From IMG/VR virus record IMGVR_UViG_3300025929_000026, positions 1-42,453 of that record: a stretch of 42,453 nucleotides of DNA; one strand, 5' to 3'. The stretch is from a virus. Below are positions 14,049 to 31,635 of this stretch, in pieces. Under the pieces are notes generated by a model, which saw nothing but the letters and a program-made list of their open reading frames with translations, did not search any database and had not been told where the DNA came from. Every line of letters starts with the position of its first letter. Position 1 is the stretch's first letter. Both the position numbers and the translations under genes were made by a program.

Positions 14049-14114
14049 ATTTTGCTCGCCTTTTTCGGCCAGCAGCAGCACCAAAACTCCTCCCTATCAC
14101 GAGTACCAAATGAC

Positions 14115-20690: not shown

Positions 20691-20867
20691 ATGTATCTCT
20701 CGCTGATCGACGTTGGCCTGACCTTCCTGCAATCGTTCCTCGGTGGCCTCAAGACGAGCAAGGCTCCCGCTGATGTCGTGGCTGCCGTGCAAGCCGCAGT
20801 AGATGCACTATTCGCACACAAGGCCGACATCATCAGCAAGGCCAATCTCGATGCTTTGCGCGGCTAA
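20691..20867 (+). CDS. 58-residue helical protein before the terminator
   Basis: This short frame starts right after the lipoprotein stop, behind GCAGGAGGCAAGTAA, an excellent ribosome binding site. The product is an amphipathic helix bundle (MYLSLIDVGLTFLQSFLGGL, then ADVVAAVQAAVDALFAHK and DIISKANLDALRG). It is similar in style to the soluble end of the 19975 product. It is the last gene of the late transcript. Function is unknown. Confidence 0.65.
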   Translation: MYLSLIDVGLTFLQSFLGGLKTSKAPADVVAAVQAAVDALFAHKADIISKANLDALRG

Positions 20868-20899
20868 GTCTTAAAAACGGATTCTCCCTCGGCACAATC

Positions 20900-20936
20900 A
20901 GCCCGCATTGAGCTTCGGCTTGATGCGGGCTTTTTT
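20900..20936 (+). terminator. Rho-independent terminator of the late/lysis operon
   Basis: AGCCCGCAT (20900-20908) pairs with ATGCGGGCT (20923-20931). The stem continues inward as TGAGC/GCTTG with a UUCG tetraloop, and six T residues follow (20931-20936). This is a near-ideal intrinsic terminator. It ends the rightward transcript before the divergent control region. Confidence 0.9.
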
Positions 20937-20940
20937 GCGT

Positions 20941-21105
20941 CTATCCTTCACGTTTCCGCCTTCGCATCTCTCGCCTAGTAGCCTGCCGCCTGCACCTATC
21001 GCAATAGGTCTTATATTTCCTACGCTTTAGCCCACAGCGCATACAATTCCCATTCTTTACCTGCTCGCGTTGCCAGAGCCGCTGGCGGGACACTTCCTTT
21101 ACCAT
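20941..21105 (-). CDS. Minus-strand zinc-finger protein (early leftward gene)
   Basis: This 54-residue protein starts at ATG 21105 and stops at 20943-20941. It has a CMRCG...CDRC pair spaced like a small zinc ribbon, with a highly basic C-terminus (RRQATRREMRRRKREG). The layout SRQRLWQ...C..CG...C..C..R is frequent in small phage proteins that probably bind nucleic acid. It is the only gene read leftward from the control region and may be a regulator. The promoter ends six bases before its ATG and there is no clear ribosome binding site. Confidence 0.7.
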   Translation of the reverse strand: MVKEVSRQRLWQREQVKNGNCMRCGLKRRKYKTYCDRCRRQATRREMRRRKREG

Positions 21106-21111
21106 GTGTTC

Positions 21112-21139
21112 ATTCTAGCAACAAAAACGTACTAGTCAA
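21112..21139 (-). promoter_or_regulatory. Leftward sigma70-like promoter
   Basis: Read on the minus strand, TTGACT (21139-21134) and TAGAAT (21117-21112) are 16 bases apart, both close to consensus. The ATG at 21105 comes exactly six bases after the -10 box, predicting a leaderless mRNA. It lies back to back with the rightward promoter at 21151. Confidence 0.65.
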
Positions 21140-21146
21140 TAAGAAT

Positions 21147-21167
21147 GTTCTTGACGTGTTCTTGACG
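21147..21167. promoter_or_regulatory. Operator candidate: LexA-type GTTC-N7-GTTC within a direct repeat
   Basis: GTTCTTGACG occurs twice, at 21147-21156 and 21158-21167, one helical turn (11 bp) apart. The first copy and the start of the second make GTTCTTGACGTGTTC, a perfect match to the alphaproteobacterial LexA consensus GTTC-N7-GTTC. The repeats contain the -35 of the rightward promoter, so a bound protein would block it. AAGAA-TG-TTCTT (21141-21152) overlaps on the left. A phage regulator instead of LexA is possible. Confidence 0.55.
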
Positions 21168-24931: not shown

Positions 24932-25172
24932 GCTGGTGGAAAAGTATCTCGGCATCCCGCGCAAGCGTAAGTATTGGCATATCGCCCAGATCGAGTGGAA
25001 GTTGAGACACAAGCGAGGGCTAAAGCCGCGCGCGCCGATCCCGATTGACCGCGCAACGGCCTTACGCTGCGTCCTGTCACCGCTGAGGCTCAAGCGCTGG
25101 CACGCCGCCGAGAAGGTGCGCATGTACGAGGCGAATCCGAAGCGCGGGCTGCACGAGAAGGACAGCGAGTGA
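24834..25172 (+). CDS. Basic DNA-binding-like protein
   Basis: This 112-residue protein starts at ATG 24834 behind GAGGAG. It is strongly basic (WSKAKRREWMRESRKRQRAA, LRHKRGLKPRAP). The first 30 residues match the style of phage proteins with an R-x-W-R-x-x-N helix next to HNH genes. It ends in a GTGA overlap with the methyltransferase. A DNA-binding or methyltransferase-partner role is a guess from charge and context. Confidence 0.55.
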   Translation: MAWSKAKRREWMRESRKRQRAAEGRTVKGAWSKLVEKYLGIPRKRKYWHIAQIEWKLRHKRGLKPRAPIPIDRATALRCVLSPLRLKRWHAAEKVRMYEANPKRGLHEKDSE

Positions 25173-25867
25173 AGCCATACTACGAGCACGCAGGCATCAC
25201 GATTTATCACGGGGATTGCCGGGAGATTTTGCCGTCGCTAGAGCCAATGGATTTGCTGTTGACTGACCCTCCCTATGGAATCGGGGTGGCAAGGCGGACA
25301 TTCGGGGCTGGTCGAATCAATGGTAAAAGCGGTCTTAAAAACGCCAATGGGGATCATTACCAGCCGAAAGAATATAAGAAATCTGACTGGGATGATGAAC
25401 CAGCGGACGGTGAACTAATCAGATTGGTGCGGTCACTTTGTAAAGATCAGGTGATATGGGGCGGAAATTATTTTGAATTGCCTCCATCAATGCGCTGGCT
25501 TGTATGGGATAAGTGCAACGATTCCAATGATTTCTCGGATTGCGAACTAGCTTGGACGAATCAGGACAAGGCCGTGCGCATGTTTCGCTATCGGTGGAAT
25601 GGAATGCTGCAGGAATACGGCGGACGCCACAAAGAGGAGCGCCTGCATCCAGCCATGAAACCGCTACCGCTGATGAAGTGGTGTCTGAGCTTCTTCCCTG
25701 ATGTACGGACTGTACTGGACCCTTTCTGTGGCTCAGGAACGACGCTGCGCGCGGCGAAGGATATCAGCATCAATGCTATAGGTATTGAGCGCGAAGAGCA
25801 TTACGCAGAGATCGCCGCCAAGCGCCTCTCGCAAGAAGTGCTTGACTTTTCCGGCGGTGCTTTATAA
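25169..25867 (+). CDS. DNA adenine/cytosine-N4 methyltransferase
   Basis: This 232-residue protein starts at GTG 25169. Motif order is DPPYGIG first (residues 32-38) and DPFCGSGTT near 184-192, which defines a beta-class amino-methyltransferase. LHPAMKPLPLMKWCL precedes the SAM motif, as in this class. It methylates adenine N6 or cytosine N4 in a short site using SAM. With no restriction enzyme nearby it is probably a solitary protective or regulatory methylase. A promoter lies inside its last 25 bases. Confidence 0.85.
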   Translation: MKPYYEHAGITIYHGDCREILPSLEPMDLLLTDPPYGIGVARRTFGAGRINGKSGLKNANGDHYQPKEYKKSDWDDEPADGELIRLVRSLCKDQVIWGGNYFELPPSMRWLVWDKCNDSNDFSDCELAWTNQDKAVRMFRYRWNGMLQEYGGRHKEERLHPAMKPLPLMKWCLSFFPDVRTVLDPFCGSGTTLRAAKDISINAIGIEREEHYAEIAAKRLSQEVLDFSGGAL

Positions 25868-25870
25868 ATT
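25842..25870 (+). promoter_or_regulatory. Promoter at the end of the methylase gene, for the gene-free locus
   Basis: TTGACT (25842-25847) and TAAATT (25865-25870) are 17 bases apart, with TATAAA overlapping as an alternative -10. No start codon with a plausible gene follows. A structured stretch begins at 25890. This suggests transcription of a noncoding RNA starting near 25877. Confidence 0.5.
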
Positions 25871-25876
25871 CGCAAA

Positions 25877-26460
25877 CGGATAAAAGTTTCGCTGGGAAGT
25901 GGTTATCCAACGGCTCCTCAAAGCAGCCGCCTTATGCCACTTCCTCAGCGACTCTTATAAGCGAAATGGCTTTGTCCCCATTTCCTGTTCAATCCCGAGT
26001 CTCTCAGCGTCACTCTCGCAGCGCCGTACCGCAGCCCGCGCTGAAAATGACGTGTTCAGTTTGCTGGCAAGGACCGTTCTCATGGGAACTCGCGTCGAGA
26101 CAAGTAAAGAGCGTCCATACGCGTTGGAGTCAGCTCATTTGGTTCTTCAACCGAGTTTCCTTGAAAACGGTCTGCGCTGTGCATATTCCTCATTTCGCAG
26201 GAAGATAAGCCACATTTCAACCGGTGAGAGACGCTCAACACGGCGGGCGTCTGATAGGTCTGGTGTGTGCGCGCGAAACCGCTGCGTAATTGCCGTTTGG
26301 CTGGAATCCAGCAAGGACTAGCTCTAAACACGACTTGGAGATGGCTAGGGGCTCTGCCCCCCGCCCCCCGAAGTCAAAGGCCAAGAGCAAAGTCAAAGGC
26401 TAGGGTGAGAAGGGGCGCCGTGTGCCTTAAGCCTGCCACGCAACATTCCTAAAATAGTCC
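25877..26460 (+). ncRNA. Gene-free, structured locus; candidate noncoding RNA
   Basis: About 580 bases hold no frame that looks like protein. Pairings visible by eye: CGCTG+GGAAGTGG (25890-25902) with CCACTTCC-T-CAGCG (25937-25950), 13 bp with one bulge; inside it CGGCT/AGCCG; GAAATGG/CCATTTC (25963-25984); TCAGCG/CGCTGA (26004-26044); AGACGC/GCGTCT (26229-26252); GCTGG/CCAGC (26300-26312); and GGGGC/GCCCC (26348-26360). A T-loop-like GTTCAATCC is at 25987. Size and phage origin recall GOLLD- or ROOL-type RNAs, but no match is claimed. No T-tailed terminator was found. Confidence 0.45.
26371..26400. repeat. Direct repeat AAGTCAAAGGC, two copies
   Basis: AAGTCAAAGGC occurs at 26371-26381 and again at 26390-26400, 19 bases apart, with AAGAGC between. 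Purine-rich repeats of this type occur in intergenic DNA of some Acidobacteriota as I remember it. They could also be a binding site. They follow a C-rich stretch and GGGGCTCTGCCCC. Confidence 0.6.
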
Positions 26461-26489
26461 TTGACAGATATTCGCACATATTGTAATTA
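26461..26489 (+). promoter_or_regulatory. Promoter with a perfect -35 box
   Basis: TTGACA (26461-26466) is followed after 17 bases by TAATTA (26484-26489); TGTAAT at 15 bases spacing is the alternative. ATG 26496 lies exactly six bases after TAATTA, so the mRNA would be leaderless or nearly so. No Shine-Dalgarno is visible for that gene. Confidence 0.6.
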
Positions 26490-26495
26490 ATGAGC

Positions 26496-26636
26496 ATGAG
26501 AACCAACCGCGTAGTAGTTCTGCTGAGCGACGACGAAATGCAATTTCTCTTGAATCAGGCGTGCGCTGTACCGCTGAGCATTTGGATTCGCAATCTGATT
26601 CTCAAGCAACAAGATGGCAAGAAAAAGAGCAAGTAG
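26496..26636 (+). CDS. Ribbon-helix-helix-like regulator, 46 residues
   Basis: MRTNRVVVLLSDDEMQFLLN begins with a basic strand and continues as strand-helix-helix (NQACAVPLSIWIRNLILKQQ), the outline of Arc/MetJ-type ribbon-helix-helix proteins. The end is very basic (QDGKKKSK). ATG 26490 is also in frame, two codons upstream. It comes first after its own promoter and could repress that promoter or the divergent control region. This is the best candidate for a DNA-binding regulator in the genome. Confidence 0.6.
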   Translation: MRTNRVVVLLSDDEMQFLLNQACAVPLSIWIRNLILKQQDGKKKSK

Positions 26637-26677
26637 CGGGGGCGGGGCGGCTGACGGTCTAATGGAGAGGGACGAAG

Positions 26678-26911: not shown

Positions 26912-26948
26912 CGGGCCACATCTAGCGCGGGAGGAGGGGGACAGGGTA

Positions 26949-27296
26949 ATGTACAACCGAGTTGATGCAGTAATTGGAGCGAAAACCCTTCGATGGTTCG
27001 CTGCGAAACGCCCTGACCGTTGCTTCTACTGCGGCGTTGCTGTTGTTTACACACGCAATCAGCGGAATGGAGATTTCGACCCTCGCAATCCAAATTTGGC
27101 GACGAAGGATCATGTTGTTCCAAGAGCAAGGGGCGGTCGCAAGGGGAAACACAATATCGTGAAAGCGTGCCAAAGGTGCAATTTGATGAAAGGTAGTCAA
27201 CACATCTCGAATCTTCGCGTTGCTCTTACAGGTAAAAGAGACGGATATTTTTACGGTGAGATTGAGTTTAGCAATAGACAGAGCGTGCGCCGATGA
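26949..27296 (+). CDS. HNH endonuclease 2
   Basis: This 115-residue protein is started here at ATG 26949 behind a long G-rich stretch. The HNH core is CFYCG (zinc pair), KDHVVPRARGG with the conserved DHV, and NIVKACQRCNLMKG with the second zinc pair and Asn. The basic N-terminus (AKTLRWFAAKRPDR) could bind DNA. It overlaps the next gene by ATGA. It may be a stand-alone homing nuclease or a DNA-processing enzyme. Confidence 0.8.
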   Translation: MYNRVDAVIGAKTLRWFAAKRPDRCFYCGVAVVYTRNQRNGDFDPRNPNLATKDHVVPRARGGRKGKHNIVKACQRCNLMKGSQHISNLRVALTGKRDGYFYGEIEFSNRQSVRR

Positions 27297-27607
27297 GCAA
27301 CGCAGAGACACGCAAGGGGCGCTACGAATGGAGAATCGAGAAGTATGGGACCACATGCGCGATATTTGAGGGAGACCGCCGGGTAGCCTATTTCTATGGC
27401 GCAACCGACGATTGGACGCACGAAGAAGCCAGAGCCAATGCGGAAAGGGCTGTTGGAAATGCATCTCCTGAACGCGAGCGGCTAGCTAAGTGGATGATTC
27501 AGCATGGCTTCGCCACAGGTCACGGCGATACGTTTGAGGATTTGTTGGATGCGATGACATGGCAAGTGGCTGAAAAGAGGAATCCGGACGAAAGGAAACG
27601 GCGATGA
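27293..27607 (+). CDS. Early protein, unknown
   Basis: This 104-residue protein starts with an ATGA overlap. It has beta-like RYEWRIEKYGTTCAIFEGDR and helices (EEARANAERAVGNASPE, ERLAKWMIQHGFATGHGDT). The pattern of a C-terminal helix after H.F.TGHGD.F..LL is shared by small phage early proteins. No catalytic motif is evident. Confidence 0.65.
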   Translation: MSNAETRKGRYEWRIEKYGTTCAIFEGDRRVAYFYGATDDWTHEEARANAERAVGNASPERERLAKWMIQHGFATGHGDTFEDLLDAMTWQVAEKRNPDERKRR

Positions 27608-28038
27608 CCCGGAGCAACCCTAAGCCGGTCGAAGGGGCGCGAGAGCTGCTGGTGAGGCTGCGAACGCCTTATGGCGCCCAGGGATTACTTCTTGAGATTA
27701 ACGCTGAGATGCGCGAACTAATCGGCAAATTTACCGGCATGGATTTTAGCAACCCCGCCGACATCTACTTGGCGATGCGCCACTTAGAGGAGTTTCTAAA
27801 TCGGCAAAATAATCGGCACGCCGATGCGTTGGAGGCCGCTCTCTCCGCTGCTCCCGCGCCCACGGCGATACCTACCGTCGATGAAATAGCTGAAGCTATG
27901 GCGGATGCGCGTTTGTGGAAAGGTTCGTGGACGAAGATGTGTGAGGCTGAGCGTAACGTCATGCGCCAAGGTGCAGAGGGCGTGTATTCGTTGTTGGAGC
28001 GCTGCGCAGCCAAGGAGCAAGCCGATGGACAGCGGTGA
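27604..28038 (+). CDS. Modular early protein, SNPK...EGA type
   Basis: This 144-residue protein begins MTRSNPKPVEGARELL, echoing MSNPKLVEGALRELTEA at 29597. The end (ERCAAKEQADGQ) is repeated at the end of the 28496 gene, and the DNA coding GSWTKM has a second copy at 29196-29217. These shared ends indicate domain swapping within this operon. The middle is helical. The composition recalls Ea22-type phage early proteins, whose role is poorly known. Confidence 0.6.
   Translation: MTRSNPKPVEGARELLVRLRTPYGAQGLLLEINAEMRELIGKFTGMDFSNPADIYLAMRHLEEFLNRQNNRHADALEAALSAAPAPTAIPTVDEIAEAMADARLWKGSWTKMCEAERNVMRQGAEGVYSLLERCAAKEQADGQR
27918..27939 (+). repeat. 22-bp repeat, copy 1 (copy 2 at 29196-29217)
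   Basis: GAAAGGTTCGTGGACGAAGA plus TG occurs identically at 29196-29217. The two copies are read in different gene contexts, and in copy 2 the final ATG is a start codon. With the other repeats in 27.9-30.3 kb it points to internal duplication or recombination. Confidence 0.85.
28005..28031 (+). repeat. 27-bp repeat, copy 1 (copy 2 at 29062-29088; partial at 28485-28502)
   Basis: The 27-base block starting CGCAGCCAAGGAGCAAGCCG is identical in both full copies. Its last 18 bases occur a third time at 28485-28502. Each copy carries GGAG followed by ATGGAC, so it ends one gene and supplies the ribosome binding site and start of the next frame. Confidence 0.9.
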
Positions 28039-28069: not shown

Positions 28070-28506
28070 TAATCCCTTGGAGAGAAGTAGCGATTGGTGA
28101 TGTCACGATTACTGGCAAGCGCGGCGGTACTCTTATCGAAATGCAGGGAGAGTGTCCGCACAAAAGGCTTCAAGCGGCTGAGGATGGAGAGATTTTGACC
28201 TGCCTCGACTGTGATAGACAGGTGAGTGCATGGTGGGCGCTGATGCGTTTTGCGCGCCAAGTGGATAAATGGAAAGAAAGTATCGAGAGTCGCGCCAAAG
28301 AGATTGAGGATGCATCGAAGCGAACCGTTGTATTACGCGCGGCCCTAAAGGTCGAGGAGGCGTGGAGACGCAGAAAGTTCAAGCCATGCTGTCCACACTG
28401 TCACAAACCAATCGGGCCGGAGGATGGATTCGGGCGCGAGCAAATGAGAATCGTGAGCAGAAATGTCGTGTGCGGGAAGCGAGGGGAGCAAGCCGATGGA
28501 CAATAG
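28066..28506 (+). CDS. Two-zinc-site early protein
   Basis: This 146-residue protein has ECPHKRLQ...LTCLDCDRQ near the N-terminus and CCPHCHKPI near residue 107, which could bind two zinc ions. A charged helix (WKESIESRAKEIEDASKRT) lies between. The end GKRGEQADGQ comes from the repeated start block. I recognise no family. A nucleic-acid-binding role is plausible. Confidence 0.65.
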   Translation: MIIPWREVAIGDVTITGKRGGTLIEMQGECPHKRLQAAEDGEILTCLDCDRQVSAWWALMRFARQVDKWKESIESRAKEIEDASKRTVVLRAALKVEEAWRRRKFKPCCPHCHKPIGPEDGFGREQMRIVSRNVVCGKRGEQADGQ

Positions 28507-29098
28507 GGAGAGGGCGGCGAGGTGGCGTAGGAAAGCAGTTTTGTGCCAAACGCAGGGACTCCGCGACGATAGAGCAATGCATCGAGCAATCGTCTATAAC
28601 GAATGCGCTGAAGAACTTGAGGCGGAGGCGCGTGCCGCCATCGAAGGGGAGCCACCGCGCAAGTTTCCGATTCAAAAGGCTACACCTATTCCGTGGAGCT
28701 TGGCTGAACGCGCATATCGAACCTATGCCGAACATTACGGTAGGCAGCAATCGCTGGAACGGTTAGCGGAGCGCGGTGGCTTTGGGTGGAGCGAGTTCTT
28801 GCATCTTTACTACGGCGACACGACATACGCCAAAAAGGAAGAGATGCAAGCGCGGTGGGATGCCGACGAACTAGCGCAAACCAAGTTGAGAATCGCTGAA
28901 CTGGAGCGTGTGGCCCCTGCTCCCGCAAGAGATGGGGTGCGCGAGGCGATTCGTCAGCGAATCTTAGACTTGCCTGAACAGCGCATTGGTTCAGGAAATT
29001 CTACGTGGGACGACTGCGAGCCGATTATTTATCTTCGTAAGCGCGACGTGCTGACCGCGCTCGCAGCCAAGGAGCAAGCCGATGGACAAGCCATTTGA
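28496..29098 (+). CDS. Modular helical early protein
   Basis: This 200-residue protein is started here at ATG 28496 behind GAGGGGAGC. It contains AEARAAIEGEP, coded by a 32-bp block also found in the 29597 gene, and ends TALAAKEQADGQAI, coded by the 27-bp repeat. The N-terminus is basic (DNRERAARWRRKAV). A central aromatic helix (ERAYRTYAEHYGRQQSLERL) is distinctive. The family is unknown, and it shares modules with three neighbours. Confidence 0.6.
   Translation: MDNRERAARWRRKAVLCQTQGLRDDRAMHRAIVYNECAEELEAEARAAIEGEPPRKFPIQKATPIPWSLAERAYRTYAEHYGRQQSLERLAERGGFGWSEFLHLYYGDTTYAKKEEMQARWDADELAQTKLRIAELERVAPAPARDGVREAIRQRILDLPEQRIGSGNSTWDDCEPIIYLRKRDVLTALAAKEQADGQAI
28622..28653 (+). repeat. 32-bp repeat, copy 1 (copy 2 at 29726-29757)
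   Basis: A 32-base block beginning GCGGAGGCGCGTGCCGCCAT is identical at both sites and is read in the same frame, coding AEARAAIEGEP. It lies inside two different genes about 1.1 kb apart, which would allow homologous recombination and deletion between them. Confidence 0.9.
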
Positions 29099-30304: not shown

Positions 30305-30546
30305 CCTGCCGCAAGCCGAAGTTTAAGGTGGGGCAGGTGGTGTGCGTCATGGGAAGCAAGTTGTTGCGTAGCTTTGTGCCTGACTATTTTCGCATCTCAG
30401 GAGTGAAGCCGTACGGTAGGACTTGGCAGTATCGAGTTAGCGACCACGACATGCGCGGGCCGTGGATTGCGCAGAAGCAATTACGTGCCCTTTACGCGCC
30501 GGAGCGTGGCCGATGGCCCGCGAAGGCGAGGATTTGCAGCGGTTGA
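30301..30546 (+). CDS. Small basic protein, KOW/SH3-like core
   Basis: This 81-residue protein is started here at ATG 30301 (ATGA). After the shared MTCRKPK start it has KVGQVVCVMGSKLL, YFRISGVKPYGRTWQYRVSD and RGPWIAQKQLRAL, a short beta-barrel layout seen in phage proteins that follow G.V....Y..I. It is basic throughout and may bind nucleic acid. The family is not certain. Confidence 0.6.
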   Translation: MTCRKPKFKVGQVVCVMGSKLLRSFVPDYFRISGVKPYGRTWQYRVSDHDMRGPWIAQKQLRALYAPERGRWPAKARICSG

Positions 30547-30563
30547 TGCGGGAGGAGCGGTAG

Positions 30564-30929
30564 ATGGGGGCTGAACTGCGGATTATGGTGCCGTTGGTGC
30601 CGCCGAGCGTCAACATGTATGTCAGGCACACGCGAAGTGGGAGGCATTATGTCACAGCCGAAGGTCGATCTTTCAAAGAGGCTGTCGTTTTACTTTATCG
30701 ACGGGCGGGACGCTTGGATACACGACGGTACGAGCTGGAAGCTACTGTGTACCTCGGCAGAGCCCAGCGTGGTGACGGAGATAACTTTTGGAAGGTTATT
30801 GCGGATGGACTTGTGGAGGCTGGGGCAATTCATTCGGATGCGGCTGTCACTGATTGGATTATGCATGTCCGGCGTGATCGAGCGAATCCGCGGACGGAAA
30901 TCATAGTGCGGGCGGCGCAGCAGGAATAG
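30564..30929 (+). CDS. rusA: RusA-type Holliday junction resolvase
   Basis: This 121-residue protein shows the RusA pattern: VPLVPPSVNMYVRHTRSGRH near the start, then RGDGDNFWKVIADGLVEAGAI with the acidic metal-binding residues, and a second acidic site (HSDAAVTDW). RusA cuts four-way junctions symmetrically. With the Erf annealase it would process recombination intermediates before packaging. Length is normal for the family (about 120). The frame ends 14 bases before the next gene. Confidence 0.85.
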   Translation: MGAELRIMVPLVPPSVNMYVRHTRSGRHYVTAEGRSFKEAVVLLYRRAGRLDTRRYELEATVYLGRAQRGDGDNFWKVIADGLVEAGAIHSDAAVTDWIMHVRRDRANPRTEIIVRAAQQE

Positions 30930-30942
30930 AGGAGATGGCGAA

Positions 30943-31635
30943 ATGAGCGGTGACGAGGCTTATGTACGAGTTCCAGTTGGCGCGTTCAAGTGGCTGATGG
31001 GCGAAGAGGGCGATTTCGTTCCTCCTCCAGATGCAAAAGGTAATTTCTGGTGGCGTTCTGAATTCCAGCGGCGCATTAAGAATTTTGCTTTTTGCTGGAC
31101 ACCGCCAATTAGGCAAGAGCAGCAGGCCATCGATCGCGCGCTATGGAGCGAAATAGGGCTGGCGATCGGGCGGATTGAATCTGCACTTGAGAGCGTCTGT
31201 GGCGAGCTTTTGGTGAAAGATGGACTGTTGAGCTATCGGACGCAGCAAAAGGCGCTCCTAGACGGCCTAGCGTTGAAACAGGTCGCAATCCTAGAGTTTC
31301 TCGTAGCGTTCAAACGGCAAAACGAGCAACTCACTGAAGAAAGCAGGGCTATTGTCAAAGAACGAGGCGATAGACTCTTAGCTATAGAACTATCTCTTGA
31401 AACGCTAGGACTTCAGCAAGATGTCATCGAAAAGAAGCTGGACGAGCGCATAGCGCCGAGCAAGACATTTGGCGATTGGTGGCACAGTGTAGGTCACACG
31501 CACATGCCTAAAAACGGCGAACCACCGATACATGCATCCATCGCGGAACTTGCTTGGAATGCAGCACTTAGGGCGCAGCCGAAGCGCAAGCGGGAGAGGA
31601 AGGGCAAACGGCTGGCCAATCGGACAGGTAAATGA
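30943..31635 (+). CDS. Coiled-coil early protein, unknown
   Basis: This 230-residue protein starts at ATG 30943 behind GAGGAGATGGCGAA. It has an N-terminal aromatic part (GAFKWLMGEEGDFVPP), a long central coiled coil at residues about 70-165, and a C-terminal FGDWWHSVGHTHMP...SIAELAWNAAL motif. That final motif (D.WW......, A..AW..AL) is common at the end of phage early proteins of unknown role. The end is basic (KRKRERKGKRLANR). Confidence 0.65.
   Translation: MSGDEAYVRVPVGAFKWLMGEEGDFVPPPDAKGNFWWRSEFQRRIKNFAFCWTPPIRQEQQAIDRALWSEIGLAIGRIESALESVCGELLVKDGLLSYRTQQKALLDGLALKQVAILEFLVAFKRQNEQLTEESRAIVKERGDRLLAIELSLETLGLQQDVIEKKLDERIAPSKTFGDWWHSVGHTHMPKNGEPPIHASIAELAWNAALRAQPKRKRERKGKRLANRTGK

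Follow-up and report, generated by a model that had tools for sequence, protein, structure and literature searches.

A noncoding stretch with two long hairpins behind a methyltransferase gene in a soil-type phage

The locus and its accessory setting

The DNA analysed here, referred to below as the window, is a virus record of 42,453 bases from a soil-type phage. Between the stop codon of a DNA methyltransferase gene (25867) and a 48-aa ORF (26490) lies a noncoding stretch that contains two long hairpins (Table 1). All identified genes that flank this stretch are on the plus strand, and the accessory block around it comprises methylase, Lar-like and HNH genes.

Table 1. Features of the window and of the noncoding stretch. 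A point in the strand column means that no strand is assigned.
Feature	Position	Strand	Remarks
Terminase large subunit			phrog_38, 5e-44
Portal protein, SU10-like			PF23899
ERF annealing protein (ERF recombinase) gene			Same genome half as the noncoding stretch
RusA-like resolvase/nuclease gene			Same genome half as the noncoding stretch
HNH nuclease gene			Profile match in the record
DNA methyltransferase gene, N6/N4	25169–25867	+	PF01555 (1e-17), phrog_67 (1.4e-39); directly upstream of the noncoding stretch
Sigma-70-like promoter match, TTGACT-17-TAAATT	25842–25870	+	Inside the last methylase codons; chance-level
Noncoding stretch	25868–26460	.	About 593 bp; weakest three-base periodicity; no family match in tested frames
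Hairpin 1	25880–25958	.	Long stem enclosing an inner stem-loop; beats 600 of 600 shuffles on both strands
Hairpin 2	26062–26183	.	Imperfect hairpin of about 120 nt, inverted repeat; core arms 26072–26092 and 26152–26172; beats 600 of 600 shuffles on both strands
Right part of the stretch, with GC-rich GGGGCTCTGCCCC hairpin	26186–26460	.	Folding within chance, z -0.5 (+) and +0.5 (-)
Possible promoter of the 48-aa ORF, TTGACA-15-TGTAAT	26461–26487	+	Read by eye; spacing outside the range scanned
48-aa ORF	26490–26636	+	Ribbon-helix-helix-like; model pLDDT 79.5

The host of the phage is probably an acidobacterium, because a relative of the methylase that adjoins the stretch was found in Paracidobacterium acidisoli (an Acidobacteriota genome), and the nearest named phage relative by terminase is Tunturiibacter phage Tunturi_3, although it is only 26% identical.

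The nearest relative of the window is the IMG/VR contig L038, with a terminase that is 95% identical and large syntenic blocks of 83–91% DNA identity. In this contig, the region matching the end of the window directly precedes the region matching its start, and hence the ends of the window are arbitrary. Homology with L038 stops after position 25078 and returns at 26635 with an identical junction of 37 bp. In between, L038 carries neither the methylase nor the noncoding stretch nor the 48-aa ORF. Instead, it has two protein ORFs (1262–2188 and 1938–2357 of L038), neither of which has a Pfam match. Judged from this replacement, the stretch appears to be part of an accessory segment. In another record, L039, the comparable place contains just a truncated methylase frame, limited to the start of the methylase gene.

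Other parts of the window also bear on gene exchange. A block of 435 bp containing the RusA-like resolvase gene (30542–30976) is 99.5% identical to L038 (4494–4928), compared to about 83–91% elsewhere, which points to a recent exchange between phages. Furthermore, five pieces of 27–40 bp (26635–26671, 26915–26941, 27290–27316, 27602–27641 and 28478–28515) are nearly identical to parts of L038 2357–3679. They sit at gene junctions or gene starts and flank unrelated gene bodies, as if genes had been swapped between the two phages at conserved boundary sequences. The start of the methylase gene (25169–25230) is conserved as well: its first 50–110 bp are 74–93% identical in DNA across many methylases, the proteins of which are mostly 35–60% identical.

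The 48-aa ORF is a probable ribbon-helix-helix DNA-binding protein, in view of its predicted layout of an extended N-terminus followed by two helices (residues 14–24 and 29–46). The protein had no Pfam or NCBIfam match and no fold match in the PDB, and a peptide-pattern scan with it gave no match. The TTGACA-15-TGTAAT sequence directly upstream could possibly serve this ORF, with leaderless translation from the ATG at 26496.

Noncoding character and local folding

By Fourier analysis, three-base periodicity is weaker in the stretch than anywhere else in the 42-kb record. When the genome was scanned in 351-nt windows, five of the ten with the lowest periodicity began at 25909–26113, with values of 0.16–0.34 compared to a genome median of 3.1, and the longest run of low periodicity in the genome (in 201-nt windows) extends from 25921 to 26452. 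In each of the six frames, codon scores were negative or close to zero, and the frames tested from the stretch matched no PHROG, Pfam or NCBIfam model. An earlier reading, made from the sequence only, had noted about 600 bp without a protein-like frame; this is borne out by our results, which support the noncoding nature of the stretch.

It is highly improbable that a protein gene was overlooked, either the longest ORF (25899–26321, 140 aa, GTG start) or short ORFs on the minus strand: the length of the 140-aa ORF is unusual (P = 0.033 in shuffles), but it faces the lack of periodicity, the poor codon scores and the absence of family matches, while its structure model is unfolded (pLDDT 35), inspection of the sequence upstream revealed no ribosome-binding site, and a peptide-pattern scan with this frame found no match. 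The two minus-strand ORFs (26080–26331, 83 aa, and 25955–26083, 42 aa) overlap by ATGA at 26080–26083, and neither has a family match.

Folding energies were compared with those of dinucleotide-preserving shuffles, using 600 shuffles per hairpin. The whole stretch folded more stably than its shuffles: z-scores ranged from -3.6 to -4.0 for the plus strand and from -3.8 to -3.9 for the minus strand. Hairpin 1 reached z-scores of -5.4 (+) and -6.1 (-), and hairpin 2 of -4.2 (+) and -4.8 (-). The pairs of hairpin 1 span 25884–25956 on the plus strand and 25880–25958 on the minus strand (37 pairs). A stem had been reported at 25890–25950, and it is indeed present as hairpin 1, inner stem-loop included, with a stability beyond all shuffles. 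Conversely, only the hairpin at 26062–26183 exceeded chance among what had been described as at least five more hairpins. The sequence between the two hairpins (25966–26059) had z-scores of only -0.3 and -1.5, and the remainder of the stretch, joined after excision of both, folded like shuffled sequence (z -0.3). Excess stability is thus confined to hairpins 1 and 2, and our results do not support an ornate, many-helix architecture. The apparent abundance of structured elements arises because any RNA of 500 nt folds into hairpins. Stability was slightly higher on the minus strand for hairpin 1 and on the plus strand for hairpin 2; since both strands fold equally well and the hairpins favour opposite strands, folding does not single out either strand.

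We also scanned the plus strand of the genome in 150-nt windows (n = 283; mean z -0.05, sd 1.1). The 150-nt window holding hairpin 1 was the second most extreme of these. At 14101, a 150-nt window had a z-score of -4.8, which was reduced to only -2.1 when retested over a longer stretch. The third most extreme 150-nt window is that at 21151, and 20691–21155 forms a second gap, in which about 460 bp lack any plus-strand ORF of at least 60 aa.

The TTGACT-17-TAAATT sequence, previously read as the promoter of a large RNA, is present at the position claimed for it. However, it lies within methylase codons, and our scan, which allowed spacings of 16–18, found one promoter-like site in the surrounding 2.5 kb versus 1.8 expected from shuffles. 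A scan for terminator-like sites yielded no intrinsic terminator in the stretch. The suggestion of a T-loop at GTTCAATCC (25987–25995) did not hold: inspection showed no flanking T-arm stem, and ARAGORN detected neither tRNAs nor tmRNAs anywhere in the window. A tRNA-like reading of GTTCAATCC was rejected on these grounds.

Searches for relatives and known RNAs

No DNA homologue of the stretch was detected in phage collections and plasmids. It was also not found in 48 records and genomes that were checked directly, and none of 36 methylase relatives carries it. A search of 396 genomes belonging to the same phylum as the Paracidobacterium match revealed no homologue either: four matches at E 0.005–0.008 equalled the number expected by chance, and the three that were inspected had no matching hairpin, two of them lying in evident protein-coding frames. 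Gapped patterns of both hairpins gave only chance matches in IMG/VR viral contigs, a single-sequence covariance model of hairpin 1 matched only the window itself, and the motif of the right-hand junction matched only the L038 contig. Such negative results carry little weight, since diverged relatives escape both exact patterns and models built from a single sequence.

Rfam provided no match for the stretch at the gathering score. The models of GOLLD, ROOL, HEARO and OLE, with which the sequence-only reading had proposed to check its claim, were absent even at E values up to 10, where only two unrelated miRNA-precursor models appeared (E 4.6 and 7.6), as any long hairpin could produce. A reading as the RNA of a retron or a diversity-generating retroelement (DGR) was rejected, because no reverse transcriptase gene (PF00078) was matched in the record.

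Possible roles of the hairpins

Our results support a genuine noncoding segment that is specific to this lineage and part of the accessory block, in line with the other ORFs that syntenic L038 has at this place. For the two hairpins, a role at the RNA level is our leading interpretation, a tentative one to which we give somewhat less than even confidence. A rightward read-through transcript from the methylase side would contain both hairpins, which might act as double-stranded elements of the RNase III type, involved in processing, in insulation or in the protection of 3' ends. Possibly, they are released as one or two small stable RNAs. Both the placement in a rightward transcript and the choice of processing or insulation as the most likely role follow from three observations: the identified neighbouring genes are all oriented rightward, our scan detected no terminator, and only 13–17 nt separate the methylase stop codon from the start of hairpin 1. 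The combination of the weakest periodicity with hairpins beyond all 600 shuffles, set against a mean z-score of about zero for the 150-nt windows of this genome, is consistent with this interpretation. Counting against it, the lack of a homologue leaves no conservation or covariation to draw on, both strands give equal hairpin scores, as a DNA-level palindrome would, and some extreme hairpins will turn up in any scan of a whole genome.

Processing hairpins of the T7 type, cut by RNase III, occur between phage genes. The stretch resembles them as a gene spacer that contains long double-stranded hairpins, one of which directly follows a stop codon, with co-directional neighbouring genes and no terminator. 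It differs from them in that its spacer far exceeds those of T7 in length.

An alternative explanation, which we consider rather unlikely, might be that the stretch is decayed or passenger DNA, left over in a rapidly changing accessory region from a gene or a mobile insertion and now without function, its palindromes being relics or accidents. This would be consistent with the absence of the stretch from L038 and every other record searched, and with a folding signal limited to two hairpins. The ATGA overlap of the minus-strand ORFs resembles that of coupled genes, GC and AT skew are reversed at 25800–26200, as the remnant of a leftward gene might show, and the truncated methylase frame of L039 shows that genes are lost at this place. 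However, the frames tested had no similarity in Pfam, PHROGs, NCBIfam or phage genomes, and a decayed leftward gene was rejected, as its two minus-strand frames lack a family match. Moreover, decaying sequence would not be expected to contain two independent hairpins that exceed 600 shuffles, and phage genomes tend to shed useless DNA.

It is improbable that the inverted repeats instead function at the DNA level, as protein-binding sites or as sites of replication or mobilisation (an operator, a centromere-like site or an origin), possibly for the adjacent ribbon-helix-helix-like protein. The equal strength of the hairpins on both strands, the probable ribbon-helix-helix protein directly downstream, and the ERF recombinase and RusA-like resolvase genes in the same genome half all fit such a site. 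Yet, the stretch contains no iterons and only a single pair of exact 11-bp direct repeats, no relaxase or partition ATPase was seen among the gene products scanned, and the arms are long and imperfect, unlike those of usual operators. Integron attC sites, IS200/IS605 palindromes and MITEs were rejected, as no associated transposase or integrase was present among the gene products scanned.

Distinctly improbable is a phage structured RNA of an undescribed class, with two long hairpins and linked to the methylase/ribbon-helix-helix block, for instance an RNA for counter-defence or host takeover.

The sequence-only reading had proposed a large structured RNA with its own promoter, similar to GOLLD or ROOL. 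The noncoding nature and good local folding of the stretch are supported, whereas a reading as one large RNA with a promoter of its own and a likeness to these RNAs is not, and an ornate analogue of GOLLD or ROOL is very unlikely. GOLLD and ROOL are located in phages and prophages, often near tRNA islands, and their function is unknown (PMC12286853). The stretch shares with them a length of about 600 nt, its noncoding character and its place in a phage genome, and its overall z-score of about -4 would suit such an RNA. In contrast, it has no covariance-model match and no tRNA in its window, its structure beyond chance consists of two hairpins, and no relatives were found, not even in L038. In addition, its promoter is at chance level.

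A further parallel is offered by the orphan intergenic regions of accessory (moron-type) blocks in phages. Like these, the stretch is lineage-specific, lies beside methylase, Lar-like and HNH genes, and gives way to other ORFs in L038; unlike these, it has an unusual length free of frames and two hairpins stronger than chance. This case shows that a folding z-score of -4 for a whole region can stem from two hairpins alone. For now, the stretch belongs with the numerous orphan noncoding stretches of phage accessory blocks. If its hairpins are part of an RNA that is discrete and abundant, they would represent a new class of phage RNA in a poorly studied group of hosts.
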